In this document: piece by piece, positions 5,942 through 39,812 of the stretch | How the letters are laid out: every line of letters begins with the position of its first letter | Position numbering within the stretch: the first letter of the stretch is position 1 | Source: Bacteroidota bacterium | GTDB lineage: Bacteria; Bacteroidota; Ignavibacteria; UBA10030; UBA8401 | Assembly (NCBI GenBank): GCA_019455105.1 | Contig: JACFMZ010000011.1 | Coordinates: 1-39,812 of the forward strand | DNA: 39,812 bases | Direction of reading: 5' to 3' | The notes under the pieces: generated by a model | What the model was told of the DNA's origin: nothing | Databases searched by the model: none | What the model saw: only the letters and a program-made list of their open reading frames with translations | Made by a program: the position numbers and the translations under genes

Positions 5942-6038
5942 TTCTTTTACGAGAACTTCCTTACTGTCCACAATTTTCATTAAAAATATGATTCCCCGTC
6001 TTTCAATAACTCAGACTCAAATAATTTTCTAATTGTTC

Positions 6039-7136: not shown

Positions 7137-7199
7137 ATATGTCAAAACCTTTTTACACCAGATAACGAATTATTAATAAATTTCTTCATAAAGGGAGAT

Positions 7200-7703
7200 A
7201 TGAAAACTTTTCTCATCACAATGTTTCTTTTTGTATTTACCATTTCGGCTTCAGCACAGGAATCCAAAAATCCTCAAAAAGCATCATGGCAGACATTTAA
7301 TACCGGAATGCAAAAAGCAAAAACATCAGGTAAAAAAATTCTTATCGATGTCTATGCTGATTGGTGCAGCTGGTGTAAAAAAATGGATGCAGTAACGTAT
7401 GCCGATAAAAAAGTACAGGATTATCTCAACAAAAATTTTGTCATCATAAAACTGAATGCAGAAGCAAGTGAGAAAATCCAATATTCCGGACAGACAATTT
7501 CGCCAATGGAATTTTCTCAAGGCATGGGAATTAACGGTTATCCCGCAACGCTCTTTATGACAAGTTCAGGGCAGCCGATTACCATTTTGCCGGGATATTC
7601 AGAGCCGGATATGTTTATTCATGTTTTAAGCTTCATTGCAGAAAATCAATACGAAAAGAAAAAGTTTGATCAGTATCTTACAGAAAAGGGAGTAAAGTTT
7701 TAA
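7200..7703 (+). CDS. exported thioredoxin-fold protein (WCSWC active site)
   Basis: The 167-residue protein has a signal peptide (MKTFLITMFLFVFTISASAQ) and a thioredoxin fold with DVYADWCSWCKKMD (C56 and C59) and a cis-proline in NGYPATLF (P115). The W-C-x2-C-K-K-M-D form is typical of the exported thioredoxin-like/DUF255-related group that works in the periplasm as a disulfide reductase or isomerase. A good ribosome binding site (AAGGGAGA) lies just before the ATG. It follows the glycosyltransferase by 63 nt and is closed by a strong terminator. It might keep cysteines of envelope proteins reduced; no partner is evident here. Confidence 0.85.
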   Translation: MKTFLITMFLFVFTISASAQESKNPQKASWQTFNTGMQKAKTSGKKILIDVYADWCSWCKKMDAVTYADKKVQDYLNKNFVIIKLNAEASEKIQYSGQTISPMEFSQGMGINGYPATLFMTSSGQPITILPGYSEPDMFIHVLSFIAENQYEKKKFDQYLTEKGVKF

Positions 7704-7711
7704 TTTATTTC

Positions 7712-7748
7712 AGCAAGCGGAAGTATAAATCTTCCGCTTGCTTTTATC
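7712..7748. terminator. bidirectional rho-independent terminator
   Basis: A perfect 12-bp inverted repeat (AGCAAGCGGAAG at 7712-7723, CTTCCGCTTGCT at 7731-7742) with a 7-nt loop is followed by TTTTA on the + strand. It lies between the convergent thioredoxin-like gene and the first GT9 gene. The reverse direction has a weaker T tract. Confidence 0.85.
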
Positions 7749-8928
7749 GAACGGATTTAATGAACATATTCCCACGAATCGCCGCAAGTTTTCTTACTTC
7801 AGCAATTATTTTTTCCAAATCAATCATTTCAATACATTCAAGATTATACGGACATTCTTTTTTCCAGCACGGTGCGCAGAATAATCCTTCGGGGATCAGC
7901 TTTATTCCTCTGTCATACAAATCAATTTCACTCCAGCAGCTCAGCCCGAACCAGACAATCACAAATTTTTTTAACGCAATGGCAACATGCATTCCAAACG
8001 AATCACCGGTAATCATCACATCGCAGATATTTTCATAACATATTCCCCGCCGGACTCCTTCTGTTGTGGGAGTGTTCAGAACTTTATTTCCAACCCTGCG
8101 ATATATTTCCGCATTGCGCTCGGTATCTTCCGGACCGCCGACCAGAACTAATTTCACCCCGTCAACTTCTGCTAAAGCGTTGATAAGATATTCGTGCTGT
8201 TCGATTCTCATTTTTTTATTCGGATACAAAATTGAACAGCCGGTATTAAATCCTACCACCAATTCTCCCGTATGCAGTCCGTGTTCGGCTTTATATCTTT
8301 CGCAGAATTCTTTTTCCTGTTCCGTAAGTTCTAAAACATATTCGTCCCGATTGAATTTCAATCCGAGCGCTTCCTGTAAAATTTGTGTCCCCGCTAAATT
8401 ATTTTTTCGGAATTTTAATTCATCATTCAAACCAAGAATGTAACTGTATTCCGCTTCTTTATTCAAAGGAATAATTTTTCCGTTTTCATTTAACCCGAAA
8501 CCGAGCTTCTTCTTTGCCTGAATGCTGTTTCCAAACGCACAGGAGCGTTTTGTTTTATCGGTTTGGAGAAGCACATCAAATTTCATCTGCTGCAGAATCA
8601 GCCAATTTTCCGGTTCCCACACATACACGGCATCGAGATACGGATTGTTATCCAACAGGCGGTAAGCATTTTTCAGCGTTATCCAGGAAATATGCGAGTT
8701 CGGGTATTTTCTTTTTAATGCCGGAAGCATTGCCGTTGTCTGCAGAACGGCGCCCATAGCATCTAAATTGACAATAAGAATTTTTGTTCCTAAAGGAATA
8801 TTATCTACGCATTTTTCATAGCAGACAGTCCCGGGAAAACATGGTTTATAGCCGGTAAAATGTTTGCAATCTGGTATTCTAATTTTTTGTTGCTTTATTT
8901 TTTTCTTTTGAATTTTTTTCTTTGACAT
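7744..8928 (-). CDS. GT9 (ADP-heptose:LPS heptosyltransferase-like) protein with two cysteine clusters
   Basis: This 394-residue GT-B protein contains ILIVNLDAMGAVLQTTAMLPALKRKYP (50-76, by description), FNTGCSILYPNKK near 227-239, LVLVGGPEDTERN near 260-272 and TGDSFGMHVAIAL near 307-319, all GT9 landmarks. A lysine-rich N-terminus precedes a cysteine cluster C21-x8-C30-x5-C36-x3-C40 (CKHFTGYKPCFPG). A second cluster at C351-x2-C354-x4-C359-x5-C365 matches the spacing in the GT9 gene at 9913-10923. The position usually holding the Gly-Asp pair after the first strand reads G59-A60, so the acidic residue thought to act as base in heptosyltransferases is absent or moved. It is the last gene of the three-gene GT9 operon and ends beside the terminator. 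Donor sugar is unknown. Confidence 0.83.
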   Translation of the reverse strand: MSKKKIQKKKIKQQKIRIPDCKHFTGYKPCFPGTVCYEKCVDNIPLGTKILIVNLDAMGAVLQTTAMLPALKRKYPNSHISWITLKNAYRLLDNNPYLDAVYVWEPENWLILQQMKFDVLLQTDKTKRSCAFGNSIQAKKKLGFGLNENGKIIPLNKEAEYSYILGLNDELKFRKNNLAGTQILQEALGLKFNRDEYVLELTEQEKEFCERYKAEHGLHTGELVVGFNTGCSILYPNKKMRIEQHEYLINALAEVDGVKLVLVGGPEDTERNAEIYRRVGNKVLNTPTTEGVRRGICYENICDVMITGDSFGMHVAIALKKFVIVWFGLSCWSEIDLYDRGIKLIPEGLFCAPCWKKECPYNLECIEMIDLEKIIAEVRKLAAIRGNMFIKSVR

Positions 8929-8933
8929 TATTC

Positions 8934-9908
8934 TCAGTTATTATTTTTGTTAACTATTTCAAGAAATGATTGATAGACACTTTCAACCTCAATAGCAGAT
9001 AGTGTATTTTCGGATGAACGAACGGTCTTAAAGTTGCTCGAAAGCGGCTGCCAGCTGACAAAATTCCATTCATAATTGGGGTATAAAACAACCATTGGAA
9101 TGTCAAACGCAGAGGCAATATGCACTGCAGAAGTATCCGCTGTTATAAGATAATCCGAATTTTTAAGATATGCCGCATAATGTTGAAATGAAGAATAGAG
9201 TTTTTGTATTATTCTGGCGGTATCAAGCTGGGCAATAATTTTGTCAAATTTTTCCTGATCTTTATTTTCATAAAGCAAAATAAATTTCCATTGCGGAGAT
9301 TGCTGCATAATTTTCTGAATTAACAATACCCAACTCTCTTCCTGCCAATAGCGAATTGCCGCCCCTGCCGAAAGGTTAACGGCAATAATTTTTGAATGTT
9401 CTTTTACAGCACTAATCTGAGCCGCTATATCATGTTCTTCTTCCTCACCGAGATAAACAATAGGTTTCTTGATAAGATTTCCAAATTGCTTATCGACCAA
9501 TGATAATAAAATTCGGAGCCGCTCGATAATATGAGATGTATTTTTATCGGGCCGCTCTATACCGATATCCGCTTTCGATGAACCAAAATTAAAACCAATG
9601 GAAGTCCGATATCGCAGAATTTTACGAATCATTGCGGAAGTTGTCGATGCGTCATCGTTTAGATCAACAATACCATCAAATTTCTTAAAAAATAATTTCA
9701 GCAATAAAAAGTATATTAAAAAATTTCTTTTTGAAAAATAAAAGTTTGAAATATCGTCATTATATTTCAATACCTCTCTATTCCCCGGCAGCGTTATAAG
9801 AGAAAGTTCATCATAAGGGAATATTTCCTTCCATGCTTTAAACACCGATGAAGCAACAACAATATCGCCGATTTTTCCTAATCGAATAAAAAGAATTTTT
9901 CTTCTCAC
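8934..9908 (-). CDS. GT9 family glycosyltransferase (heptosyltransferase-like)
   Basis: The 324-residue protein starts at a GTG (9906-9908) with the typical N-terminus ILFIRLGKIGDIVVASSVF, including the conserved Gly-Asp. Later landmarks are AVNLSAGAAIRYWQEESW, ILLYENKDQEKFD and TADTSAVHIASAFDIPMVVLYP, the last being the donor-binding loop of GT9 enzymes. It lacks the C-terminal cysteine cluster of its two neighbours and ends in a polar tail. It sits 5 nt from the next gene and 4 nt from the previous, so the three are one transcription unit. The probable function is addition of a heptose-like sugar to lipid A core or another glycan in the cytoplasm. Confidence 0.85.
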   Translation of the reverse strand: MRRKILFIRLGKIGDIVVASSVFKAWKEIFPYDELSLITLPGNREVLKYNDDISNFYFSKRNFLIYFLLLKLFFKKFDGIVDLNDDASTTSAMIRKILRYRTSIGFNFGSSKADIGIERPDKNTSHIIERLRILLSLVDKQFGNLIKKPIVYLGEEEEHDIAAQISAVKEHSKIIAVNLSAGAAIRYWQEESWVLLIQKIMQQSPQWKFILLYENKDQEKFDKIIAQLDTARIIQKLYSSFQHYAAYLKNSDYLITADTSAVHIASAFDIPMVVLYPNYEWNFVSWQPLSSNFKTVRSSENTLSAIEVESVYQSFLEIVNKNNN

Positions 9909-9912
9909 CCTG

Positions 9913-10923
9913 TTATCTTCTTCCTAATAATTTTCCTGCTTTTTCGATGAAGGGCTGCACCGGCAGCTCAAACATACATTCATGATGATACTGGCAGGTA
10001 AGTTTATTGCAAATAATACAAAATAAATCACTTTTAATAACAAAATCTGAATTTACGGAATACGGACGGTGATTTTGCGGATTGGTCGGTCCAAAAATTC
10101 CTATCGTTGGAACTTTTAATGCCGCTGAAATATGCATCGGACCCGAATCATTAGCAATCACTAACTGACATTTACTGATTAACGCCGCCATCATTCCTAC
10201 AGAAGTTTCCGGTGCATAGATGCTTATCTCTTTAAGTGAAGAAAAAATTTTGTCGGCATCTTCTTTATCTTCCGGTCCCCATAAAATTAAAAATCTACTT
10301 TGATAAACCCGCTCAAGTTCACGGCAGATTTCAATCCATTTTTCCGGTTCGCATCGCTTTGATGGCCATCCGCCGGAGGGGATAATTCCAATAACGATTG
10401 TGTTGGTTAAATTTTTAGAGTGAAAATACTCAGCAGCAAATTTTTTTTCTTCTTCCGTTAAATAAAAATGGGTATTCTTTGAAGTAACGGGGATTCCGGC
10501 AGCTTTTAACAGTTGAAAATTTGCTTCTGCAGCATGCATCTCCGGAGCCGCCCGCTCTGCACGGATAGCGTAAGCATACTTCCTTCCGCGATAGTCGAAA
10601 CCAATTTTATATTTCGCACCGGAAAGAAATGTGATTTGTGCGGTTTTAGGATTTGACCAAAAATCAAAAACAATATCGTATTTTTCTTTCCGGACTTTTC
10701 GAATGATGGAAAGAATAAAATCATTTTTTTGGTATGTTAATACTTTAGAAATAAACGGATTATTTTCTATAGCACGTTTTCCAAAATCTTCTGTAAGGAA
10801 ATGAATTTCCGCCTGAGGAAAAGCATTTTTTAAATTTTCGAGAACTACGGTAGCAAGAACAATATCACCGATTCCCCGCGGTTTTATACATAGAATTTTC
10901 TGAATTTTTGAAATTAATAGCAT
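9913..10923 (-). CDS. GT9 family glycosyltransferase (heptosyltransferase-like)
   Basis: This 336-residue enzyme has ILCIKPRGIGDIVLATVVLENLK at the N-terminus (Gly-Asp at 19-20), IPSGGWPSKRCEPEKW at about 181-196, LWGPEDKEDAD, and NDSGPMHISAALKVPTIGIFGPTNP near 258-282, the most WaaF/RfaF-like donor site of the three. A C-terminal cysteine cluster (C302-x2-C305-x4-C310-x5-C316) has the same spacing as in the gene at 7744-8928. It is the first gene of the operon, starting at the ATG complementary to 10921-10923. No clear ribosome binding site precedes the ATG. Likely role: transfer of ADP-heptose or a related sugar onto the LPS inner core. Confidence 0.86.
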   Translation of the reverse strand: MLLISKIQKILCIKPRGIGDIVLATVVLENLKNAFPQAEIHFLTEDFGKRAIENNPFISKVLTYQKNDFILSIIRKVRKEKYDIVFDFWSNPKTAQITFLSGAKYKIGFDYRGRKYAYAIRAERAAPEMHAAEANFQLLKAAGIPVTSKNTHFYLTEEEKKFAAEYFHSKNLTNTIVIGIIPSGGWPSKRCEPEKWIEICRELERVYQSRFLILWGPEDKEDADKIFSSLKEISIYAPETSVGMMAALISKCQLVIANDSGPMHISAALKVPTIGIFGPTNPQNHRPYSVNSDFVIKSDLFCIICNKLTCQYHHECMFELPVQPFIEKAGKLLGRR

Positions 10924-11099: not shown

Positions 11100-13001
11100 A
11101 TGCGAAAAATCGCTACGTTTTTCTTTTTGTCTATGTTAATGTCTGCATTTGCATACAGTCAATTTCATATTGGCGCTACATGGACACCAAAACTTACCAC
11201 TACAAGTCCTGATTCTGCTTACTTTGGAGATATTGGGATTCGAGGCGCTTGGGTTGCACCGGATTTAGATAAAGATGGGAAGCCGGAAATTATTGTAACA
11301 GACTACACTAAATCCGGAAGAGTTCATGTTTTTCAAGCTGCAGGGAACGATACATTAGAATGGATTTGGTCTTCACCTCGATTAGATTTAGTTGCTGATA
11401 TGGGTTCCGGTGGAAGTTCTACTCCCCGCACTATTCGTACCGGCGATCTTGACGGAGACGGAAAAGGTGAAATTATTTTTGCACGTGCAGGGAAAGGATT
11501 TTTAGTTTTTGAATGGGACGGAGTTCCTGGTAGCCACAAGTTTGGAACACTTCCCTCGGCTGTTGTTCCTCTCGACGTCCCATACGGATCTAATTACGGC
11601 GATTTAGCCGCCGCCCCAAACGAAGGAGGCTTACAAACCACCGTTGAACATTTTGAAGTAATGGATGTCGATAAAGATGGAAAAGATGAATTAATAATTC
11701 CAAAAAATATTTCAGGAGCTGCAAATGATGATTTCTTAATTATTTCTGCTGACGGAGAATGGGATTATGAAAATCAAGGATTTGCTTCTTTTAAAATCGA
11801 GGGAAGTACAAATCGTTTAGCAAGTGTTAAATACGGCGGAGGTTCTCCATATTCAGTTCATCCGGCGGATATTGATGGCGACGGTAAATATGAACTCGTT
11901 TGTCATAACTGGCAAGAGGGTGATTACTTTGTTATGAAAGCAACCGGAGCTGACACCTATCAACTTCCTGATACGAATAAAACAGCTAACTTCTTAAATA
12001 TCACTTCACCTTATGACCAAGTTGCACTCTTCGGCGGAATTGTCGGCGATATTGATAAAGATGGAAACGATGAAGTATTTTTTGCATGGTTTGATGATCT
12101 TGCGGGAGCCGGCGGCGGAGAAGAGATGGGAAATCTTTGGATTGTTAACTACAGCCCGAATGATGATGTCTTTAAAGCCGATTCTACGCATGTTGCGCGT
12201 ATCATGACTGGTATTTCTCAATCATCATCCGGCGAGCGTATCTCCAGCTTTAACGGAGTCGTTGCCGATTTTGACGGTAATGGAAAGAAGGAAATAATCG
12301 TTTCTTCCTCATATCCCAGTAACGTTGTTGCAGCAGAATATCAAGGCGGTAATGTCATGGATCCCGCAAGCTATATTCGAAAAGTCTATTATACAGGCGA
12401 AAAAGATATTTACGCTACGGTAACGTATGTTGATTCAGCCGGAGTGTTAGATACCTTGACTACTCTCGGCGAAGGATTCGTTTCAAAAATGGCTGGTCCT
12501 ATTGATTTAGACGGAGACGGAAAATTAGAACTCCTTCTTCCTTATCAATCTTTAGTTGATGTTACAACCTATTCTTGGACACACTATGATACAAATACCA
12601 GCGCATTTGTTACAGATTCTTCTGTAGCGCTCTCCAATCCTAAAAAATGGACAATCCGTTCATTAGAGCGGGATGTTGCCGGCAGCGTCCATTCAAAAGA
12701 ATATGTTATGATTACACCGGATAATTATATTTTAAACCAAAACTATCCCAATCCGTTCAACCCTTCAACACAAATTAATTTTATTCTTCCGTTGAACAAA
12801 AAAGTAAGTTTGAAGGTGTATGATATGCTCGGCAAAGAAGTTCGTACACTCATCAATAACGAAGAGTATGCAAAAGGTAATTACAATGTTACCTGGAACG
12901 GACGCGATAATTCGGGACGCACCGTTGCATCGGGAACATACATTGCAAAAATGGTCTCCGGAAATATTGAGAAAAGCATTAAAATGATGATGGTAAAATA
13001 A
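11100..13001 (+). CDS. secreted FG-GAP/VCBS-like beta-propeller with T9SS type A sorting domain
   Basis: The 633-residue protein opens with a signal peptide (MRKIATFFFLSMLMSAFAYS) and carries seven DxDxDG-type motifs at about residues 55, 116, 189, 257, 317, 390 and 469 (for example DLDKDGKPEIIV, DIDGDGKYELVC, DFDGNGKKEIIV). Such motifs bind Ca2+ in FG-GAP repeats, so a seven-bladed calcium-binding propeller is likely. From about 545 it has LNQNYPNPFNPSTQINF followed by a FlgD-like Ig fold ending in KSIKMMMVK, the type A sorting signal of type IX cargo. A strong ribosome binding site (AAAAGGAG, 11085-11092) stands 7 nt before the ATG. It is monocistronic: a divergent operon lies upstream and a terminator downstream. 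Surface exposure is inferred; ligand unknown. Confidence 0.85.
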   Translation: MRKIATFFFLSMLMSAFAYSQFHIGATWTPKLTTTSPDSAYFGDIGIRGAWVAPDLDKDGKPEIIVTDYTKSGRVHVFQAAGNDTLEWIWSSPRLDLVADMGSGGSSTPRTIRTGDLDGDGKGEIIFARAGKGFLVFEWDGVPGSHKFGTLPSAVVPLDVPYGSNYGDLAAAPNEGGLQTTVEHFEVMDVDKDGKDELIIPKNISGAANDDFLIISADGEWDYENQGFASFKIEGSTNRLASVKYGGGSPYSVHPADIDGDGKYELVCHNWQEGDYFVMKATGADTYQLPDTNKTANFLNITSPYDQVALFGGIVGDIDKDGNDEVFFAWFDDLAGAGGGEEMGNLWIVNYSPNDDVFKADSTHVARIMTGISQSSSGERISSFNGVVADFDGNGKKEIIVSSSYPSNVVAAEYQGGNVMDPASYIRKVYYTGEKDIYATVTYVDSAGVLDTLTTLGEGFVSKMAGPIDLDGDGKLELLLPYQSLVDVTTYSWTHYDTNTSAFVTDSSVALSNPKKWTIRSLERDVAGSVHSKEYVMITPDNYILNQNYPNPFNPSTQINFILPLNKKVSLKVYDMLGKEVRTLINNEEYAKGNYNVTWNGRDNSGRTVASGTYIAKMVSGNIEKSIKMMMVK

Positions 13002-17262: not shown

Positions 17263-18487
17263 TCATTCCCATCTAATCGCTTCTGCAGACAATAATTTCG
17301 CTGCTCGTGTTGAAGGATAAAGTGTCGCGAGATAACACAACAGAAACGTTGAAATTGAGACAATGAGAAAATCAGAAATGCGCATTTCCACCGGAAGTGC
17401 AGGAATAATATAGACGGTTTCGTCCAGCGGAAACCAATGGTAATGTATCTGCGCCCAACATACGATATACGCAAGCATACATCCTAAAATCGCCCCGATA
17501 ATGCCGATAATGATTCCTTCAAATCGAAAGATGTTGCGTATTGCTGATTCCTGTGCGCCCATAGATTTTAATATTCCAATGTCTCGGGTTTTTTCAATTA
17601 CCGTCATAGTAAGCGATCCAAGAAGATTAAATGTTGCGACAATAACAATCAGCGTTAAAATAATAAAAGCTGTCCAACGTTCAACCAGCATTACAGAATA
17701 TAAATCTTTGTGTAAATCAAACCATGTTTGAACAGTAATACCGCTAGCAGAATATTTATTATCGAGTTCTTCTTTTACTTTCTCCGCATCTTCATACGAA
17801 TTCAATCGAAGGTCTATTCCGGAAATATTTTTTTGTATTGTAAATATGTTTCCCTGTAGAAAGAGATGTAAAGGCGTAGACCGCATCATATTCACGATTA
17901 TTTGATTCATAAATTCCCGATACTTCACATTGAATGAGTTTCGGAATCTGCATGGTTAAAAAATAATTATTTACTGATGAGGCGCTTAAAACATACATTG
18001 AATCACCGACATCTAAGCCGAGCTTATCGGCAAGAGAATAACCGAGAATAATTTTATTTCCTTCTCCTTCTTGTAACTCCCCGCTTCCAATAATAATTTT
18101 ATCGTTTAGTCCCGATATTTTTGATAAAGAGTTTGCTTCCACTCCGCGTAAAAAAACAACCCGTGTCGCTTTTTTAGAAATCAGCATGACTTTTCCGCTG
18201 ACAAATTCACCAATACCTGCACTATTCTCATTTTGTAAAAATGTTTCAATCTTATGAAGCTCTTGCGGCGTCGTCTCTCGGCTCACGCTGATTCGTAAAT
18301 GCGGATCAAATCCGACTAAAATATCAGTAACAAGAGAATTAAATCCATTAAAAACTGAAAGAACAATTAATAATGCCGCGACGCCGATGGTAATTCCGAT
18401 AACAGAAATTATAGAAATTACCGTAATGAAAGCTGCTTCACGTTTTGAAACAAGATATCTCTTTGCAATGTACCACGAATAGTTCAT
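17263..18487 (-). pseudogene. LolC/E-type ABC permease interrupted by a 1-nt frameshift
   Basis: Two overlapping frames encode the two halves of one FtsX/LolC-E permease. The upstream frame (18487 to 17792) gives the N-terminal half, with a TM segment at about 21-44 and the MacB-like periplasmic domain up to TGKHIYNTKK. The downstream frame (stop at 17263) resumes with QKNISGIDLRLNSYEDAEKV and the last three membrane segments (TAFIILTLIVIVATF, GIIIGIIGAILGCMLAY, ISDFLIVSISTFLLCY), ending AAKLLSAEAIRWE. The break falls in a run of seven A (17828-17834, T on the + strand). Six A would give a 407-residue protein, close to the intact 406-residue neighbour and matching it across the break. It may be a sequencing error, a slippage site or real inactivation. 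Start at 18487 is 1 nt after the neighbour. Confidence 0.85.
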
Positions 18488-18488
18488 T

Positions 18489-19709
18489 TTACTGTCGTAT
18501 TGCCTTTATCGGATCAAGATTTGATGCGAGTTTAGCCGGTATATACGAAGCCGTTAAACATAATATAATGCTGACAGCCGTAACAATAATAAAATTTTCA
18601 CTTTTGAATAATATCGGTACTGTGCTCATAAAGTAAATTGTACTCGGCAGGGAAAAGAAATGAAATGTTTGCTGCAGCCAGCAGACACTAAATCCAATGA
18701 AATTACCGAGTACTGTTCCGATGATACTAATAATAAGTCCCTGACGAAGAAATATTTTTCTAATATCTTTTGCCGAAGAGCCGAGCGAGCGAAGAATTCC
18801 AATTTGTTTTTTCTTTTCAAGAATCAACATAAGTAGAGTGCCGATAATATTTATTGCCGCAACCAAAGTAATTAACCCGAGTACAAGCGGAATTGGTTCT
18901 TTCTGAAGCTGAATCCATGTAAAAAGATTTCGATATTGTTGATAAATGGATCTGCCGAAAAATGGAAATCCTAATTCGGCAGAAATATTTTTTGCAAAGT
19001 GATTGGCATTTTCGGGATTGTTCAACATAATATCCAAGCCGGAAACTGCATCCGGCATATCAAAAATATCTTGTGCAGCGTGAATACTTGTGTAAAGATA
19101 CACATCGTCATATTCTGCCATTCCGGATTCATAAACTCCTTTTACAATTAAACCGGCAATTCTCGGCTGCACCGTCGCCGAAAACTCAGAAGGAATACCG
19201 AACGCAAGCAATGTATCGTTTATTGAAGCACCCAGTCGAGATAGAAGTTTTCTTCCGATAACACAATCATAAACACCGTCAGAATATTCATTCAATAATA
19301 TTTTCCCTTCAACGAGATATTTTGCAATATCCACTTCATTCGCAGAAGAAATTCCTTTAATTAAAACACCATCCGCTTGATCGTGATAACTGATCATTCC
19401 TTCTTTTGAAACAACCGGGCTAATAGAAACAACATCATTGTGTGTCCGAGATATTGTATTAATTATTTTTTGATATTCTTCGATGGGTTTATTTTGAAAT
19501 GTTGTTATCTGCACATGAGCCGTAAAACTGAACACTTTCCGTGTCAGCTCATGTTCAAAGCCGACGAGAATGGTTAAGGTAATTATTAATGCCGTAACAC
19601 CGAGCGTTACGCCGGTAACAGCAAAGGCGGTAATGAAGGAAATAAATTTCTGGCTTTGCGATTTCTGCGTTTTAAGAAAACGTTTTGCGATGTAAGCAGA
19701 ATAATGCAT
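18489..19709 (-). CDS. LolC/E-type lipoprotein-releasing ABC permease
   Basis: This intact 406-residue permease has the family layout: one TM near residues 25-50 (FITAFAVTGVTLGVTALIITLTILVG, described), a large periplasmic MacB-like domain, and three TM segments in the last 150 residues separated by the LEKKKQIGILRSLGSSAKDIRKIF coupling motif of FtsX permeases. The domain end PAKLASNLDPIKAIRQ is typical. Together with LolD and a partner permease it would extract lipoproteins from the inner membrane. It begins at the ATG at 19709, 2 nt after prfB ends, so it is in the prfB transcription unit. It is a paralogue of the frameshifted gene; which corresponds to LolC or LolE is not decidable. Confidence 0.85.
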   Translation of the reverse strand: MHYSAYIAKRFLKTQKSQSQKFISFITAFAVTGVTLGVTALIITLTILVGFEHELTRKVFSFTAHVQITTFQNKPIEEYQKIINTISRTHNDVVSISPVVSKEGMISYHDQADGVLIKGISSANEVDIAKYLVEGKILLNEYSDGVYDCVIGRKLLSRLGASINDTLLAFGIPSEFSATVQPRIAGLIVKGVYESGMAEYDDVYLYTSIHAAQDIFDMPDAVSGLDIMLNNPENANHFAKNISAELGFPFFGRSIYQQYRNLFTWIQLQKEPIPLVLGLITLVAAINIIGTLLMLILEKKKQIGILRSLGSSAKDIRKIFLRQGLIISIIGTVLGNFIGFSVCWLQQTFHFFSLPSTIYFMSTVPILFKSENFIIVTAVSIILCLTASYIPAKLASNLDPIKAIRQ

Positions 19710-31916: not shown

Positions 31917-34424
31917 TTATTTCGTCAGCATCATTCGCCTGGTTTCAGAATAATTCGGCGTGGTTAACCGATACACATACATTCCGCTTGAAAGCGATGA
32001 CGCATCGAACACTGTTTTATATCTTCCAGCGCCGAGCGTTTCATGAACAAGCTGTTTCACTTCTCTGCCGAGAATATCAAACACCGAAACCGTAACAAAT
32101 TGTTCTTCCGTTAAAGAAAATTCAATTGTTGTTGCGGGGTTAAACGGGTTCGGATAATTTTGCGCTAACTCCATTTGTGTCGGAATTTGACTTTGAGCAA
32201 TACGAACAGAAGTCGGTGTTTGCTTTATTAGCTGCAATTGATCAAAATACAGCGAGCCGAAAAGCGAACTTGTGCCGGGAACATATTGAAGCTGATAGCT
32301 GTCAAATCGTAATTGACCTTCAATAATTCCGTTACCAAGCCATGCGCCTGTTTCCTTAAAATCCCACTCTATTAATCTCCAGCCGAGCCAGTCGACCGTG
32401 TACCAAGGACTGACTTCATGATTTGCCGTTGTGCCGGCTGGGAACGCCTCTACGCTGTCATCTACTGCAAAACGGAAACGGGTTTTACTTCCGTCGCCGA
32501 GAAGAAAGGTTTGCAGTTTCGTATTTTGCGGATACCATTTTACATCCCGCGGTGCGCCGGAGTTTAAATATTCTCTTATTAAAAATGAACCGGCAGAAGA
32601 ATTCCAACCGTATTGAAGCTGCGCAGATCCGGTGTTTGATGCAAGATGAGGAACTTTTACCGCAGCATTAAATGTAAATTTTGTACTGTCACCGTTAATT
32701 CCTACCGTTGAACCGCTTGCCGCCGGCGCAAACCAAGAGGCAACAGAAGAATTAAAATCATCAATCACGGTATAAGACAACGTACCGGAAGCGGTTGTAA
32801 AATTTTTCAAAACTGTTGCGGCAAGTTTGTTTCCTGAGAGATCTTTTACATTGGAAATTGAAAGCCGGTACGCTTTTCCGCTTTCTAACGGATCGGCAAC
32901 ATAGAGATTAACATAGCCGATACCTGGGCCGTCCCAATATTGCACCTGCTGCGACGCAACCGCACCGCCGTTTTCAGTTTCAATTTTAATATTTACCGTT
33001 GATACGGTTGAAGGATCAAGCCGTTCGCTGAATTGAATGTTAAAAATTTGATTCGGCGAAATCGGAACGGCTGCATCAACCGGAAAAGCAGTAACAACAG
33101 CCGGAGGAACGGCATCTTTCTCTCCTGTTTTAAACTGAAGAACAAGTCCGTCGCCGGCAATGCCGTCACCGTTTGCGTCAAGCATTATTCCATTTTTTCC
33201 TTTCGCGGTTGAATCTATCGTAACGATAAAATCAGTTTTTACCGGAAGAGATGAGACGGGTCTAATCACCAACTGAGAATTAGTATTTGTCCACGATAAG
33301 GTATATGGAAAGCTCGGTGTAATGAAAAGCGCAGCACGCACGGAAGCAGTATCCATAGTTTTAGAAAAACGTATTCCGATAATATTTGTTACGCTGAAAT
33401 TTGTATCCCCCTGAACCGGCTGAGTCAGCGTAATCTTCGGAGGAATCATATCATATAAAGACCGATCGGCAAAAATAACAGATTGATAAGCAACCGTTAC
33501 TTTCAGTGAATCTGTTTTATAGTTCGGTGTTTCAAAGACGATAGTTTTTTGTCCCGGCTGAAGCGAATCAAACATAAAAAAGCCGTTGTTAAACAGATCG
33601 CCGCTATACACTCGATTTTCCGGAAGCAGCCGGACTTTTGTGTTGTTAATCGGAACAGAATTTTCTGCGTTTACCTGAAGACCGGCAATAATTCCGCCGG
33701 AATCTTTCGGACAGTTGTTGTAAAGTAAAATTCCGTTTAAAATTCCGTACGCTTCCATCTTTCGATAGTCGTTATTTAACAAACGCCGAGTTTCAGGGAA
33801 GACATCGTGAAACGAGCCTTCGGAAAGCTCTCCCGGCATTGTCAGCCCTTTTAACACGCCAAGATTGTATCCGCCGTTTGCTCCGCCGTAAAATGTATAA
33901 TCCAAATATACACCCGTTGTTCCGGAATTTCCTGATGATGAAGCGGTACGAATCATTGAGCGAATATTTGAAAAGATTAATCCGCCCATTTGCACCGCAG
34001 CAGGAAATGCCGGTTTTCGTGTCGAAATATCTTCTTTTACCAACACGCAGGTATAATTTCCGCCTCCGGCATTGCTGTGAATAGAATGAAACCAATTCAC
34101 ATTATTGGCATTGGCAAACTGCCAGCGGGCAGTTAATGAAGGTTCGTCATTATCATTCGGATATGAATTTGTTTCTCTTGTTAATAAAACTGTTGCTCCT
34201 TTTGCCTGCATAAGAGGACGAAGTAATAATGCCTTTTGAAAATTTCCTTCCGATTCCCAAAAAACATTACCCGGATCGGGTTCAATTCTCCGATCGTTTG
34301 CAGGGTTATTTCCGCCGTGACCGGGATCGATACAAAATTTTAATCCGCTTAAATTATTCGGCGGTTGAGCAATTACCGCTACAGAAAAAACTAACAGAGC
34401 GATGAGGATACGATAGGTCTTCAT
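31917..34424 (-). CDS. secreted N-acetylmuramoyl-L-alanine amidase (Amidase_3) with T9SS sorting domain
   Basis: I use the ATG at 34424: it follows AGGAGG by 9 nt and opens a signal peptide (MKTYRILIALLVFSVAVIAQ), whereas the ATG at 34442 is part of the ribosome binding site itself. The 835-residue protein has an Amidase_3 domain with zinc ligands H36 (DPGHGG), E60 (near WESEGNF) and H116 (FHSIHSNAG), and E202 in the SEGSF motif. A carboxypeptidase-regulatory-like fold at about 230-310, two Big_5-like Ig domains (IGIRFSKTMD, FNIQFSERLD) and a carbohydrate-binding-like beta domain around 550-730 follow. The C-terminus has NYPNPFNPATTIEF plus sorting fold, so secretion by type IX is predicted. 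It would cut peptidoglycan amide bonds outside or at the surface. Confidence 0.86.
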   Translation of the reverse strand: MKTYRILIALLVFSVAVIAQPPNNLSGLKFCIDPGHGGNNPANDRRIEPDPGNVFWESEGNFQKALLLRPLMQAKGATVLLTRETNSYPNDNDEPSLTARWQFANANNVNWFHSIHSNAGGGNYTCVLVKEDISTRKPAFPAAVQMGGLIFSNIRSMIRTASSSGNSGTTGVYLDYTFYGGANGGYNLGVLKGLTMPGELSEGSFHDVFPETRRLLNNDYRKMEAYGILNGILLYNNCPKDSGGIIAGLQVNAENSVPINNTKVRLLPENRVYSGDLFNNGFFMFDSLQPGQKTIVFETPNYKTDSLKVTVAYQSVIFADRSLYDMIPPKITLTQPVQGDTNFSVTNIIGIRFSKTMDTASVRAALFITPSFPYTLSWTNTNSQLVIRPVSSLPVKTDFIVTIDSTAKGKNGIMLDANGDGIAGDGLVLQFKTGEKDAVPPAVVTAFPVDAAVPISPNQIFNIQFSERLDPSTVSTVNIKIETENGGAVASQQVQYWDGPGIGYVNLYVADPLESGKAYRLSISNVKDLSGNKLAATVLKNFTTASGTLSYTVIDDFNSSVASWFAPAASGSTVGINGDSTKFTFNAAVKVPHLASNTGSAQLQYGWNSSAGSFLIREYLNSGAPRDVKWYPQNTKLQTFLLGDGSKTRFRFAVDDSVEAFPAGTTANHEVSPWYTVDWLGWRLIEWDFKETGAWLGNGIIEGQLRFDSYQLQYVPGTSSLFGSLYFDQLQLIKQTPTSVRIAQSQIPTQMELAQNYPNPFNPATTIEFSLTEEQFVTVSVFDILGREVKQLVHETLGAGRYKTVFDASSLSSGMYVYRLTTPNYSETRRMMLTK

Positions 34425-34428
34425 TGTC

Positions 34429-35340
34429 TTATTCCTCCTCATATGTTAATACATACACTTCGCCGTCGGATGTGGTTACCACAATTTTATTTTCTGTCGG
34501 CGAGCAATGGGGATACAGTTCCAAACCATTTTCCGTTTCTGTTAAGTTAATCCGCTGTTTTCCATCGGCAGATACGGCGATGATATCGGAGCCGATGATA
34601 ACATGCCCGTCATCAATATCATTCATTCCTATAACATACTTACCGCTGCGAGTCCATGAAGGGGCGTTGCAGCGAGCAAGACGGCGAACGTTTGTTCCGT
34701 TCACATCGGCGATAAATGCGCCTCGGTCCATATCAACGGCGGCAAGCTGCGAGCCGTCCGGAGAAAGAACCGGCCAGATGTATCTTCCGTTTTTCAGCGG
34801 ATCAAAAATTTCCTTCTTTCCCTTTTTGAGAAGTGAAATTTTTTGGTCTTCAATTCCCAGAACTACAGGCTGAGAAGTTTTTACCGAAGGAAGTATTGTT
34901 TTTTTTGTCCGCAGGTTCGTTACGGAAACATTATCGGCAACAAATACCGGTGTTTGAATATCTTCGCCGGAAGCAACAATACGTTCGCTTTTGTCGGATA
35001 GGTTTTTTATTACCACTTCCTGAGAGCGCTGCAGACTGTTCGGTTCTTGAAACGTTCTCCGGTAGGCAATCTGCTGCTCGTTTTGAGAAACAACAAAATT
35101 ATATCCTGAACCGGGATCTTCGGTAATTTTTGTCAATGTTTTATTCTTCCCGGAATATTTCCAAATTCCGTTGTAACCGGAATTTGTTAAATAAATATCT
35201 TTTCCGGAAGGCGAATACTGCGCTTGAAACCATTGCTCCGATGAAGGAACAGATATTTTTTCTTTATGGATAATTTTTATTTGTGCCGCAGCACTTACGG
35301 CACAGATAAAAACGAAAGATAAAAAGAGGTTTGTTTTCAT
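34429..35340 (-). CDS. secreted PD40/TolB-like beta-propeller protein
   Basis: Starting at the ATG at 35340 (AAGGAG lies 5 nt before it; the upstream GTG at 35346 overlaps that box), the protein has 303 residues. A signal peptide (MKTNLFLSFVFICAVSAAA) is followed by PD40-type repeats, including QYSPSGKDIYLTN, VSQNEQQIAYRR, VLSPDGSQLAAVD, SWTRSGKYVIGMND and HCSPTENKIVVTTSD. Such propellers are seen in TolB and many envelope sensors. No sorting domain or membrane anchor is present, so it is probably periplasmic. It is translationally close to both flanking hydrolase genes (4 nt and 13 nt gaps), suggesting a helper role, which is inference. Confidence 0.8.
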   Translation of the reverse strand: MKTNLFLSFVFICAVSAAAQIKIIHKEKISVPSSEQWFQAQYSPSGKDIYLTNSGYNGIWKYSGKNKTLTKITEDPGSGYNFVVSQNEQQIAYRRTFQEPNSLQRSQEVVIKNLSDKSERIVASGEDIQTPVFVADNVSVTNLRTKKTILPSVKTSQPVVLGIEDQKISLLKKGKKEIFDPLKNGRYIWPVLSPDGSQLAAVDMDRGAFIADVNGTNVRRLARCNAPSWTRSGKYVIGMNDIDDGHVIIGSDIIAVSADGKQRINLTETENGLELYPHCSPTENKIVVTTSDGEVYVLTYEEE

Positions 35341-35353
35341 TATCACTCCTTTA

Positions 35354-38014
35354 TTATTTCAGAAGAAGCATTTTTTTACTTTCAATAAATTTTTCGGTTT
35401 TGAGTTGATAAATATACATTCCGCTTGAAAGCTCCGATGCATCGAACTGCACGCTGTAATTACCGGGCGGTTGAATTCCGTTCACCAATTCCTGTACTTC
35501 TCTTCCCAGCATATCAAAAATGCGAAGCTGCACCAATCCGGTAACAGGAAGATGATAGCTGATCATCGTTGCAGGGTTAAACGGATTCGGATAATTTTGT
35601 TCCAGCGAAAACTTTGCGGGAATCTGTGCTTGTTCTTTCGGCGCAGAAGTAATATCCGCATTCAACTGCATTTCATCGAAATATGCAAAGCCGTTTCTTG
35701 CCCCGCCGCTTTCCTGCTTAATAATTATTCCGTCTACTTTTTTATACTGCCCGGTAATGGAACCGAGATTGAGTGAAATATATTTCCAGCCGCGCCAGAT
35801 TATTTTTCCGAAATCTATAAGCTGATTATCCGGCTGAAAACGGATTTGAAGCGAGTTGTTCCCTGCATCGCCGGCAACCCACATTCCCCATTTTGAATAA
35901 TTATCAAGCGGCGGCATTCCGGTCGGCTGAATGACAATGACACCGCCGGCAGTATCAGTAAAAGCGTACGTTAATTTCCCTGAATACGAGCCGTTGAACT
36001 TTTTATCATTCACAATATCAAACGTAGAATTTGCTGAATCAATCTTCGCCGTTCCGCTGGAAAGCAGCGGCTGTTTCCAGCCTTTTCCATTACTTTCAAA
36101 ATTATCTAAGATTGTACCAGCGGCAACAACTTCATTAGTCGTGGTAAATTGGAACTGATAATTCGTTTTCGAACTGTTATTATAATAATCTTTTAATCCT
36201 GCCAGTACTTTTAAAATATATGTTTGATTGGCTTTTAACGGAGGCGAGAATGATATAACACTTTGCTCATCTATAATGTCATTCTTTGCACCGGTAAGCG
36301 AAACCGATGCATTGTTTTGATCCGTAAATTTAATAGTGGTAGAAAGTGATGAGGTTAATGCCGGTTCATTTAATGTAACCACAACATCTGCCCGGAGTGA
36401 AATATTGGTGTCGTTATTTTGTGGATAGACAACAACAATCTGCGGTCCTGCTGTATCTAACGGAACTGTTGTGAAGGTAAATTGGTATGGAACAGTACCG
36501 AGTGATTTTTTCTTTGAAATATTTTTTGCCGATGTATCAACTTTAACGGTATACGTTGTATTCCAGACAAGATTTGATGACGGTTTCAATGTAAATAACC
36601 GGTTGTTATCAGTCCATTGTTTCGTTCCTGTAACATTTGGTGTAATTGAAATTGCTGCCTCAGTAGAAGCGATATCCATAGAAGTATTAAATTGTATGGA
36701 AATTTCTTTATACGTTTGTACCGGCTTGTCAGCATTTGGGAATGAAGAAACGATAACCGGCTTTACTGTATCCCCCGCTGTTAATAAACCCATATAATAG
36801 TTCCAATCCCAATAAATTCCAGGATCGGTATGGTCATTACATTTAATAGTTGGATCAAAACCTTGATTTGTAGAATAAACCCAGTTTTGCCAAGCCGTGT
36901 TTTTCCATTCACCATGGGCAACAATATGATTTCTATCTTTCGGAATGCCGTACTTATCGCACAAATAACCTACCAATCTTGAAGAAGATTGATAACATTC
37001 CGTTGTGTACCAGCCGCTCACACCGGCGTAGCCTTCATGTTCAATACCAATCATATACGAATTCCAGCATCCGGCATGCCACGCACGATATTTTTCTTCA
37101 ACCATCTGTGTTACTTCGCCCACCGGTGCATCCGGAACTCCATTCGGCATATGTGTTGAAGTATTTGCCCCGTAAGGATTTGAATTTAAAACAAAATGCG
37201 CGCTTACCTGTGCATCCGGATTTTTAAACCACGATATACATCCAAGATAAGAGCCTTCCACATCATGAATAACAACAAACCGCTGTTGAATTAACTGCGT
37301 ACCGAAGTTTCCGGAATACGCTGCATTCCATTTTGCAAGAGGATAATCCGGCTGGCTGTTTATTGAATTCGGAAATCCGCGTAACGGGCGCTCTTGAATT
37401 GCTTCGGTTTGCACTTCCTTGACAATTTTTTGAATCGGCTGAATATCTAACAAGCGGGCTTTTATAGAAATCTTATCCTGCTCAAAACCATTGGCAAGAA
37501 CAGAAAATACTTCCAGCCCTCGTTCTTGAGCAAGATCTTTTTGAGGAAAGCCGCTGAACTTTGCAACAGCGTTCTGCCAGCTTAAAATATTTGTCTTCAA
37601 AATTCCTTTGGGCTTCGGCTGTTCGTCATAATATTTTCGTAACAACGCTGCGCCGCCGCGAATATTCTGCTGTGGATCATCTTTTAATACCTGCACATCT
37701 TTGCCGATGAGTTCTGCCGCTTCACGAAGCGAAAACCCGAAATAGGAATTATCCCACAATCCCATAACGCCGTACACTCGCGGTAATCCGGTACAGGAAG
37801 AAGCTGTATCATCTGCCGCCCAGCGCATGTGCGTCCAGCGTGTTTCGCTGAAAGAAATTCCTTTTAACAGATCGGCAGGAACGCCGAATTCTTCTGCTGC
37901 CTGTTCAAAATATTTTTCATACATTTCTCTCGGTTCATGAGAATAATCGAATGCTGGCTGCTGCGCCGACAGTACGGTAATGAAGAAGAAAATAACGGTA
38001 AAGATTTTTTTCAT
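35354..38014 (-). CDS. secreted lytic transglycosylase-like / Amidase_2 fusion with T9SS sorting domain
   Basis: The 886-residue protein has a signal peptide and, at about residues 30-165, a lysozyme-like domain (KGISFSETRW with catalytic Glu E57, YGVMGLWD, NIRGGAALLRKYY). At about 235-405 follows an Amidase_2 domain with zinc-type residues H250 (VVIHDVEG), H313, the active segment GIEHEGYAG and the AHGEW / DHTDPGIYWDW ending. Two Big_5-like Ig domains (about 415-515, 520-625), a carbohydrate-binding-like domain (about 640-785) and NYPNPFNPATMISY with a FlgD-like sorting fold complete it. A fusion of glycan-strand and amide cleaving activities is predicted. It is 11 nt downstream of the DUF4159 gene. 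The transglycosylase assignment rests on motifs alone and is less sure than the amidase. Confidence 0.83.
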   Translation of the reverse strand: MKKIFTVIFFFITVLSAQQPAFDYSHEPREMYEKYFEQAAEEFGVPADLLKGISFSETRWTHMRWAADDTASSCTGLPRVYGVMGLWDNSYFGFSLREAAELIGKDVQVLKDDPQQNIRGGAALLRKYYDEQPKPKGILKTNILSWQNAVAKFSGFPQKDLAQERGLEVFSVLANGFEQDKISIKARLLDIQPIQKIVKEVQTEAIQERPLRGFPNSINSQPDYPLAKWNAAYSGNFGTQLIQQRFVVIHDVEGSYLGCISWFKNPDAQVSAHFVLNSNPYGANTSTHMPNGVPDAPVGEVTQMVEEKYRAWHAGCWNSYMIGIEHEGYAGVSGWYTTECYQSSSRLVGYLCDKYGIPKDRNHIVAHGEWKNTAWQNWVYSTNQGFDPTIKCNDHTDPGIYWDWNYYMGLLTAGDTVKPVIVSSFPNADKPVQTYKEISIQFNTSMDIASTEAAISITPNVTGTKQWTDNNRLFTLKPSSNLVWNTTYTVKVDTSAKNISKKKSLGTVPYQFTFTTVPLDTAGPQIVVVYPQNNDTNISLRADVVVTLNEPALTSSLSTTIKFTDQNNASVSLTGAKNDIIDEQSVISFSPPLKANQTYILKVLAGLKDYYNNSSKTNYQFQFTTTNEVVAAGTILDNFESNGKGWKQPLLSSGTAKIDSANSTFDIVNDKKFNGSYSGKLTYAFTDTAGGVIVIQPTGMPPLDNYSKWGMWVAGDAGNNSLQIRFQPDNQLIDFGKIIWRGWKYISLNLGSITGQYKKVDGIIIKQESGGARNGFAYFDEMQLNADITSAPKEQAQIPAKFSLEQNYPNPFNPATMISYHLPVTGLVQLRIFDMLGREVQELVNGIQPPGNYSVQFDASELSSGMYIYQLKTEKFIESKKMLLLK

Positions 38015-38025
38015 TGTGCCCTCTT

Positions 38026-39432
38026 TTATCGTTTTTGTTCAGATGCTATTTTAGTTTTATTTTGATCGACAATTCCTCCGCGCTGAGTTAGCGCATAGAC
38101 AATAACATTAAGCCCAAACTGTAATTGACGCATGTTATCAAACGGACCGCCGGCTGAACTCGGCAAAAATTTCCAATATCCCCACGCAAAATTATATCCT
38201 CTATTTGAAATTAACGCCACCATTCTGCCGTTTATAAATATTGCTTCGAGATACGGATAAATTTCTTTTACTTCACGCACTCTTCTGTCGTACCGGACTA
38301 AATCTTCTCCCGAAGGCGGACCGCTGAAATTTTCCCAAGCGGAATAAATAGGATGCGTATTGGGAATCCGTTCGAATATCGCTTCATATCCGAGCGCATC
38401 TTTTAACAATTGGCGCGCCGTAATATTAAAAGCGCCCGGCTGGTAAGCATTCCCGTCATCAATAAAAATAAATCCGCCGTGCAGCAGATATTGACCGAGA
38501 TTTCTGGCTTCTTCTTTCGTGTATTTTACCGCCGCTTGAAAACCCATCATATATAAAAATGGAACAGTGTTTAGCTCCTTTGAATCTAAACGAATTGTTC
38601 CGCGAATGCTCACCTGAAGCTTTGTACTGTCATTGGCATATTGAGCCAAACTCGGCAATGCCTGCGGAACGCAGTTCCATGAAGGCTGATTGTCAACAAC
38701 ATCCCATCCTGTTGCGGGAGATTTTTCCAGCCGTGTTGATTGATATTCTAACTGATAAATATTTAAAAATCCGCGGATATCTTTTTTATTGCGCGGGTTC
38801 ACTTCAATAAATCCGTCGAACCGATCTTGAAAATTTTCACTGGAAAGTAAATTTTCCCTCATGGTAGAAAGTCCCCCGCCGCTTCCGCTGGAGCGGGTAT
38901 TTTCTACATCGCTGGCGAATTGCGGGCCCCAATCTCTGCCGTCGCCCGGACCTGCGCCCCAGCCGCCTGCACCGCCCACTCCGAAGCTTCTTCCATAGCT
39001 TGTCGCGCCGCCGGGAATTCCCCAGCCGAGATCGGACGTTCCCGCCGCTGCCGTCAGCGCGCCGAAGAAGACACTTCCCTCGCTCGGTCTTCCGGCATTC
39101 GCCTGAACCGGACCGCTCGTTGATTGTTCTGCTGTGCTTGTTGTCGGCGCATCGGCTCTTACAAATTGAAAATTTCGCACATCGGTTGTCGGATTAAAAT
39201 CTACTGCTTTGGCTAAATCGAACGATTTGATAAAACGGGGCGGCTGCGCTTCAAATTTTACCGGCGGCTTAACGATATCATACGTTTTAATTTCAACACT
39301 GACAATCTTCTCCCCTTTTTCTCCGCCGGAAAATAAAATTATTAATCCGATAATTATATGGGTTAACGCCGAAACAATAATTGCCCAGAGACTGAACTTT
39401 GCAAACTGTTGTTTTTTTTCTGCTAAGTTCAT
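38026..39432 (-). CDS. DUF4159 domain protein with TonB-like N-terminal anchor
   Basis: The 468-residue protein has one N-terminal transmembrane segment (about residues 14-36, LWAIIVSALTHIIIGLIILF) followed by a VSVEIKTYDIVKPPVKFEAQPP segment, as in TonB-like anchors (given here in part). A glycine-rich low-complexity stretch comes at about 115-190. The C-terminal half is DUF4159: VSIRGTIRLDSKELNTVPFL, KYTKEEARNLGQYLLHGGFI and FIDDGN. DUF4159 proteins have an unproven link with envelope or surface processes. The ATG overlaps the stop of the TPR gene (ATGA), and the next gene is 11 nt away. It may bridge the inner membrane and the envelope hydrolases, an inference from context. Confidence 0.78.
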   Translation of the reverse strand: MNLAEKKQQFAKFSLWAIIVSALTHIIIGLIILFSGGEKGEKIVSVEIKTYDIVKPPVKFEAQPPRFIKSFDLAKAVDFNPTTDVRNFQFVRADAPTTSTAEQSTSGPVQANAGRPSEGSVFFGALTAAAGTSDLGWGIPGGATSYGRSFGVGGAGGWGAGPGDGRDWGPQFASDVENTRSSGSGGGLSTMRENLLSSENFQDRFDGFIEVNPRNKKDIRGFLNIYQLEYQSTRLEKSPATGWDVVDNQPSWNCVPQALPSLAQYANDSTKLQVSIRGTIRLDSKELNTVPFLYMMGFQAAVKYTKEEARNLGQYLLHGGFIFIDDGNAYQPGAFNITARQLLKDALGYEAIFERIPNTHPIYSAWENFSGPPSGEDLVRYDRRVREVKEIYPYLEAIFINGRMVALISNRGYNFAWGYWKFLPSSAGGPFDNMRQLQFGLNVIVYALTQRGGIVDQNKTKIASEQKR

Positions 39433-39812
39433 TTGCTCTTCCCTGATTCAATCCAGCGTTTATGCTGTTCCGCAAAAAAAACAACCATTTGCGCTTCGGG
39501 CTTTTCGGAATATTTTTTTATGATCTCCGTAAACATTTCCAAGGCTTTTTTTCTCTGTCCAAGTTCCTCATACGCCGAAGCAATATTCGCTTCACAGGCA
39601 TAGCGCACATCCGCATCGGGATATTTCTTGATAACATTTTCCAAAAGCGGTATGGCTTCTTTAAACTGTTCGGCATCAAACAATTTAATCGCTTCGGCAT
39701 ATTCCAGATAAGAATTGATTTGTTCTAATTCACGAACAAGACTTTTTGCTTCTTCAATGCGGGAATAGTTCGGATATTTTTCAAGAATAACCTGATAGGC
39801 GGTTTTTGCTTT
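39429..39812 (-). CDS. tetratricopeptide repeat protein, C-terminal part (5' end outside window)
   Basis: The frame is open from the window edge to the TGA at 39429. It shows TPR helices with typical spacing: KTAYQVILEKYPNYSRIEEA, LFDAEQFKEAIPLLENVIKKYP, YACEANIASAYEELGQRKKAL and EMFTEIIKKYSEKPEAQMVV. About 127 codons are in the window. The TTG near 39683 is not a start; the frame continues upstream of it. The stop overlaps the DUF4159 start, so the two are coupled. It is likely a scaffold or assembly protein of the same operon. Confidence 0.8.
   Translation of the reverse strand, partial: KAKTAYQVILEKYPNYSRIEEAKSLVRELEQINSYLEYAEAIKLFDAEQFKEAIPLLENVIKKYPDADVRYACEANIASAYEELGQRKKALEMFTEIIKKYSEKPEAQMVVFFAEQHKRWIESGKSK

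Follow-up and report, generated by a model that had tools for sequence, protein, structure and literature searches.

The 886-aa protein encoded on the minus strand of the window (the whole 39,812-nucleotide stretch analysed here, contig JACFMZ010000011.1 of a Bacteroidota genome) combined an SLT-like domain, an Amidase_2 domain and the C-terminal sorting domain of a T9SS cargo. It is read here, with about even confidence, as a surface-displayed amidase whose SLT-derived module would mainly bind glycan strands. Across its two-domain relatives the amidase appears to be the constant working part, and most members seem to have kept the SLT-like half for a non-standard role, most simply glycan binding.

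The open reading frame, with an ATG start, had exactly the coordinates of the original prediction. The protein and its parts were laid out as follows:

35354-38014 (-): 886-aa T9SS cargo with an SLT-like domain, Amidase_2, two Big_5 domains, a beta-rich region and a sorting domain (Pfam, NCBIfam).
37955-38014 (-): putative signal peptide, residues 1-20, signal-peptide-like in having Lys-Lys followed by a hydrophobic run (by eye and hydropathy only).
37481-37933 (-): lysozyme-like (SLT-type) domain, about residues 28-178 (MltF fold match, Z 14.8; MltF/MltC profile match).
37844-37846 (-): codon of Glu57, aligned with the Glu of MltF, which we take to be catalytic.
36779-37342 (-): Amidase_2 domain, about residues 225-412, with putative Zn ligands H250, H367 and D397 and with Glu325 (Pfam, fold match, alignment).
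36461-36778 (-): first Big_5 Ig-like domain, about residues 413-518, limits by eye (Pfam, two stretches).
36140-36457 (-): second Big_5 Ig-like domain, about residues 520-625 (Pfam).
35627-36133 (-): beta-rich region, residues 628-796 (23% identity to the same region of the Amidase_3 paralogue).
35369-35593 (-): T9SS type A sorting domain, residues 808-882 (Pfam, NCBIfam).

The limits that alignment gave for the first two domains lay near those proposed originally (residues 30-165 and 235-405). The predicted Amidase_2 domain was matched by Pfam at residues 245-370 (PF01510; E 8.8e-26, 91.2 bits against a cut-off of 26) and its active site was complete (H250, H367, D397 and E325); the roles of the Zn ligands and of the conserved Glu are presumed from AmpD and T7 lysozyme. 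Big_5 gave two stretches above cut-off in Pfam. Structure prediction of the beta-rich region was poor (pLDDT 31.9, 2 sequences). Pfam placed Por_Secre_tail at residues 808-882 (PF18962, 38.5 bits against a cut-off of 27) and the NCBIfam sorting-domain model TIGR04183 scored 47.3 bits against a cut-off of 23.

The organism's own genome (3.03 Mb, 197 contigs) contained 87 sorting-domain matches at E 0.001, one SprA match over nearly the whole model (1085.7 bits) and a PorU match above cut-off (954.7 bits). The type IX sorting domain claimed for the protein was confirmed, and judging from these sequence matches the protein is probably sent to the outer surface. Another T9SS cargo, with FG-GAP repeats and an FlgD_ig/Por_Secre_tail end, was encoded at 11100-13001(+) of the window.

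Pfam found no PF01464 match for the SLT domain of the 886-aa protein up to E 0.1, and phmmer with the N-terminal domain as a single sequence returned no match in the PDB. PF01464 was above cut-off in the relatives at L004, L031, L032, L033 and L049. A profile of 16 N-terminal-domain sequences matched MltF in the PDB (E 1.8e-5) and MltC-type chains (2e-5 to 1e-4), with the MltF Glu (GYQESLW) aligned to the family Glu position. An AlphaFold2 model of residues 20-425 was built from 19 sequences, the window's own and 18 from named relatives. Its mean pLDDT was 70.9; most SLT blocks reached 80-96 and the loop directly after Glu57 fell below 60. In a fold search, model residues 2-161 matched MltF 4oxv (Z 14.8, rmsd 4.0 over 131), and further N-terminal matches were 5aa1 (Z 13.7, rmsd 3.3 over 127), MltC (Z 12.9), Slt70 (Z 12.5) and MltE (Z 12.2). 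Model residues 201-395 matched AmpD (Z 17.1) and also PlyL, AmpDh2 and AmiD. On this modelling, the N-terminal domain has a lysozyme-like SLT fold, as had been expected for it.

Of the 136 loci, 95 entered the count of catalytic residues; the others were matches to the chassis alone (L010-L030), wide stretches (L052-L059), viral loci and repeated loci. Among the 103 ORFs matched, 71 spanned both domains by the set limits and 66 of these were distinct. Amidase-only loci were excluded from the 66 by design (among the 21 named loci: L034, L044, L045, L046, L048 and L050). L074 (G025), which by pairwise alignment has Gln at the Glu position, did not fit the limits and was therefore not counted in the 66.

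The amidase residues were nearly invariant in the two-domain rows: H250, H367 and Glu325 were present in 66 of 66 and Asp397 in 65, with Cys in the remaining one. The SLT Glu was kept in only 24 of the 66 rows, from several phyla, and was missing in 42; since the rows are related and unevenly sampled, 24/66 is not a frequency in nature. The replacing residues were Asn (15), Gln (14), Leu (4), Ser (3), Lys (2), Val (2), Arg (1) and Thr (1). Gln at this position is the same change as in MltE E64Q, which is inactive according to PDB titles. On a tree of the amidase columns the Glu state changed at least nine times (bootstrap 8-10), and seven changes were forced by well-supported branches. The window protein's own supported clade of six rows held four with Glu and two without. 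Most of the changes were probably losses, because ordinary SLT domains have the Glu; the direction is not readable from the change count itself.

Two further positions belong to GxMQ and AYN, which we take to be SLT family motifs. The AYN Asn was replaced in all 66 two-domain rows, and the GxMQ Gln occurred in six rows, none of them among the 24 with Glu. The window protein kept Glu57 and had G85 at the GxMQ Gln position and S154 at the AYN Asn position. As a control, all five ordinary PF01464 domains of its genome kept the Glu, the motif Gln and YN. Columns P46, G82, M84, L86, A122, W146 and G176 of the SLT half were conserved in Glu-bearing and Glu-less rows alike, which fits a kept groove; Trp60 was commoner in Glu-less rows (95% vs 54% in Glu-bearing rows). 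Columns with at least 90% identity numbered 43 in the amidase half and 13 in the SLT half. The glycan-strand cleavage originally assigned to residues 30-165 was not established: Glu57 is present, but the GxMQ Gln and AYN Asn are not, and 42 of the 66 relatives are without the Glu.

Of 395 genomes sampled from the phylum, 13 gave a match to the two-domain query (E 1e-10), and eight of these 13 carried Glu-bearing copies. In 11 of the 13 a sorting domain was on the protein: nine by Pfam, and L005 and L009 by alignment through residues 885 and 886. In L073 and L074 its place was taken by Golvesin_C; the L074 ORF is truncated at the edge of the locus. The C-terminal chassis of Big_5, beta-rich region and sorting domain was common to other cargos of the phylum; eight chassis relatives were scanned, with Amidase_3 in five, a C39-like domain in two and Amidase_2 in one.

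Twenty-one loci came from named genomes. Both domains were present in 15: Tumebacillus, Kribbella, Streptomyces, Chloroflexi, Dormibacteraeota and other MAGs, and a Saccharibacterium. L039 was counted here by alignment position, its N-terminal half giving no BLAST match. The amidase stood alone in six: four Nannocystis, an Armatimonadetes MAG and Haladaptatus. In the phyla of four named genomes, matches at E 1e-30 were found in 28/246, 3/249, 2/145 and 22/201 genomes, counts that include amidase-only matches and the starting genomes. The search for the same domain order in relatives had a divided outcome: the two-domain order was widespread in several phyla, and no T9SS form turned up outside this phylum. 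Because named relatives occur in other phyla, the fusion is not peculiar to this genome. A close origin from a phage endolysin was also rejected, as none of the 14 matching phage records covered 80% of the two-domain stretch. Viral contigs gave two and one partial matches in the amidase region, and PHROGs matches of the 886-aa protein fell on the amidase half.

The gene lay in a minus-strand run in the order TPR, DUF4159, SLT-like/Amidase_2, TolB-like and Amidase_3 cargo. Successive genes were either 11 or 7 bases apart or overlapped by 4 or 14 bases. The neighbours of the SLT-like/Amidase_2 gene in the run were:

39429-39812 (-): TPR protein truncated by the window end, with only its C-terminal part present; the G093 protein has 1046 aa (ORF, Pfam).
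38026-39432 (-): 468-aa DUF4159 protein lying upstream in the run, with a G093 counterpart at 76% identity (ORF, Pfam).
34429-35346 (-): TolB-like beta-propeller protein, 305 aa, with no sorting domain found (Pfam, NCBIfam).
31917-34442 (-): 841-aa T9SS cargo with Amidase_3, a CarboxypepD_reg-like domain, two Big_5 domains, a beta-rich region and a sorting domain (Pfam, NCBIfam).

The proposed two-hydrolase operon was upheld in that the second amidase, with its own sorting domain, sits in the same tight run, the TolB-like gene lying in between. The full five-gene order was kept in G093, of the same family. In G243, also of the same family, the SLT/amidase, TolB-like and Amidase_3 genes were together with the TolB-like gene adjacent; G240, of the same order, had the three together in another gene order, the TolB-like gene again adjacent. 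Altogether, the three-gene set was found in four of nine loci examined, the window counted, and two of the contigs were short (G200, G097). In G231, of the same phylum, a single ORF (L073:994-3768(-)) encoded PD40 propeller repeats, the SLT-like domain, Amidase_2 and Golvesin_C. In G259 (L056) a T9SS protein near the SLT/amidase gene contained a TolB-like propeller, a C39-peptidase-like domain and Golvesin_C; its propeller was 20% identical to the window's TolB-like protein (E 2e-13, pairwise comparison). The L073 fusion and the G259 protein link the TolB-like propeller with these hydrolases, whatever its role.

Other features of the surroundings were noted. The DUF4159 protein had a hydrophobic N-terminal segment by eye, and no mention of DUF4159 was found in the literature searched. 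A transglutaminase-core protein adjoined the SLT/amidase gene at L056:10305-11771(-) and L059:5304-6779(-) (G259 and G039, one genus). Defence-system models run on four proteins returned no family. Further away, window positions 2404-10923 held a glycosyltransferase gene cluster (Glycos_transf_1 type and heptosyltransferase-like family 9). An FtsX part at 17263-17928(-) and a MacB_PCD part at 17792-18487(-) made up one ABC-permease-like gene in overlapping frames; it looks frameshifted, really or by assembly error, and an apparently whole relative adjoins at 18489-19709.

The window protein shared its fold (Z 12.2-14.8) and Glu position with the family 1 lytic transglycosylases MltF, MltC, MltE and Slt70 (PF01464), but was without their GxMQ Gln and AYN Asn and gave no match to the PF01464 model. 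It likewise shared the fold (AmpD Z 17.1), the Zn ligands and the Glu of the zinc amidases AmpD, AmiD, AmpDh2 and PlyL (PF01510). Two residues ahead of the Asp ligand it had His395, against a presumed Lys in AmpD; unlike the AmpD-type amidases, it also carried an SLT-like domain and a T9SS chassis in the same chain. The same two-domain order occurred in proteins of Streptomyces, Kribbella, Tumebacillus, Chloroflexi and Saccharibacteria, for which no family name was found. Their best segments were 27-38% identical to the window protein, but their C-termini differed (FG-GAP, Golvesin_C, fn3, PA14, SH3) and no sorting domain was found in the six scanned.

Amidase_2 occurs with a glycan-cutting domain in the staphylococcal Atl autolysin and in multi-domain phage lysins, which differ in glycosidase family or order and in Gram-positive wall anchoring. 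Two published T6SS effectors also pair a glycan-cutting with an amide-cutting domain. Tae17 of Acinetobacter, as described in the available part of its report, has a lytic transglycosylase-like and an amidase domain in one protein, and changing Glu278 lowered its toxicity; it differs in T6SS delivery, a CHAP-like amidase (Cys-His), LysM and an Ig-like N-terminal domain (PMC11796386). TseP of Aeromonas, from the portion of its report available, combines a Zn amidase with a lysozyme-type domain, and differs in having the amidase first, in T6SS delivery and in its immunity protein TsiP (PMC11893102). By fold, the window protein would similarly hold two hydrolase-type domains in one predicted secreted protein; with these precedents, as far as those partial sources go, two activities in one secreted protein are already known. 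The accessible part of a survey of autolysin architectures contained no example of SLT with Amidase_2 (PMC8051824), and literature searches of limited depth found no paper on this T9SS two-domain architecture. What appears new, within the literature searched, is the display by the T9SS and the repeated change of state at the SLT Glu.

Whether the SLT half cuts or holds separates the preferred reading from a truly bifunctional lysin, displayed by the T9SS, in which the SLT domain would cut glycan through Glu57, the amidase would cut the stem peptide and the Glu-less relatives would be separate secondary losses. Such a lysin is possible, if somewhat doubtful. The SLT fold (Z 14.8), Glu57 aligned with the Glu of MltF and Tae17 as a precedent, in the part of its report available, for a fusion using both activities all speak for it. 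Because Glu57 is kept, and the Glu also in eight of the 13 protein-bearing genomes of the phylum, cleavage by the window protein is possible and maybe selected, and Glu-bearing members may be active. Against this, the GxMQ Gln and AYN Asn are replaced here while all five ordinary SLTs of the genome keep them, and the Glu state has changed repeatedly, even within the window's six-row clade. Counterpoints to glycan binding are that the conserved SLT columns may reflect the fold and not a binding groove, and that the motif Gln or Asn may be dispensable in some transglycosylases.

The wall that is attacked is a question of target, not of mechanism. Action on foreign walls, or predation, as the original prediction suggested, follows fairly from surface export, and scavenging of dead-cell or shed wall fits equally well. 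Use as a weapon of predation or competition, with the 886-aa protein and its Amidase_3 partner lysing neighbours, is rather unlikely: the sorting domain, the T9SS genes and two hydrolases in one gene run favour it, but neither the run nor the neighbourhood showed a recognisable immunity gene, the Streptomyces, Tumebacillus and Saccharibacteria relatives fit autolysis or scavenging equally, and the outer membrane of an intact Gram-negative neighbour would shield its wall. A periplasmic autolysin of the producer, acting during T9SS transit or instead of export, is very improbable; T9SS cargo passes through the periplasm and the TolB-like protein of the run is without a sorting domain, but 11 of the 13 phylum genomes have a sorting domain on the protein, and SprA and PorU are present.

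For the surface-displayed amidase with a glycan-binding module, we infer a route covering export, glycan docking, amidase activity and target wall (foreign, dead-cell or shed). The putative signal peptide would take the protein into the periplasm, and the sorting domain at the C-terminus would then direct it through the SprA translocon, after which the PorU sortase would attach or release it. The Ig-like domains would keep the head away from the surface. The groove of the SLT fold would dock a glycan strand and present the stem peptide to the adjacent Zn amidase, which would cut the MurNAc-L-Ala bond; the Amidase_3 partner of the same run would perform the same chemistry with another fold. With Glu57 kept, the SLT domain of the window protein may still cut weakly, and the family trend would be towards a non-cutting binding module.

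If the SLT half is a clamp, "bifunctional" would be the wrong label for most of the family, and the family would be a natural series for studying the loss of cutting in a transglycosylase fold that retains binding, with Glu-bearing and Glu-less members side by side even in the window's own clade. The T9SS versions would be candidate surface-displayed peptidoglycan hydrolases. More broadly and only tentatively, this may be an extracellular amidase family of several phyla in which a transglycosylase domain became a glycan clamp, the Glu being lost many times while groove and amidase stayed under selection. In the window's lineage it would have gained T9SS display with an Amidase_3 partner and with the TolB-like propeller as a dedicated accessory, a role suggested by the single polypeptide of L073 and the propeller-bearing T9SS C39-peptidase-like protein of L056.
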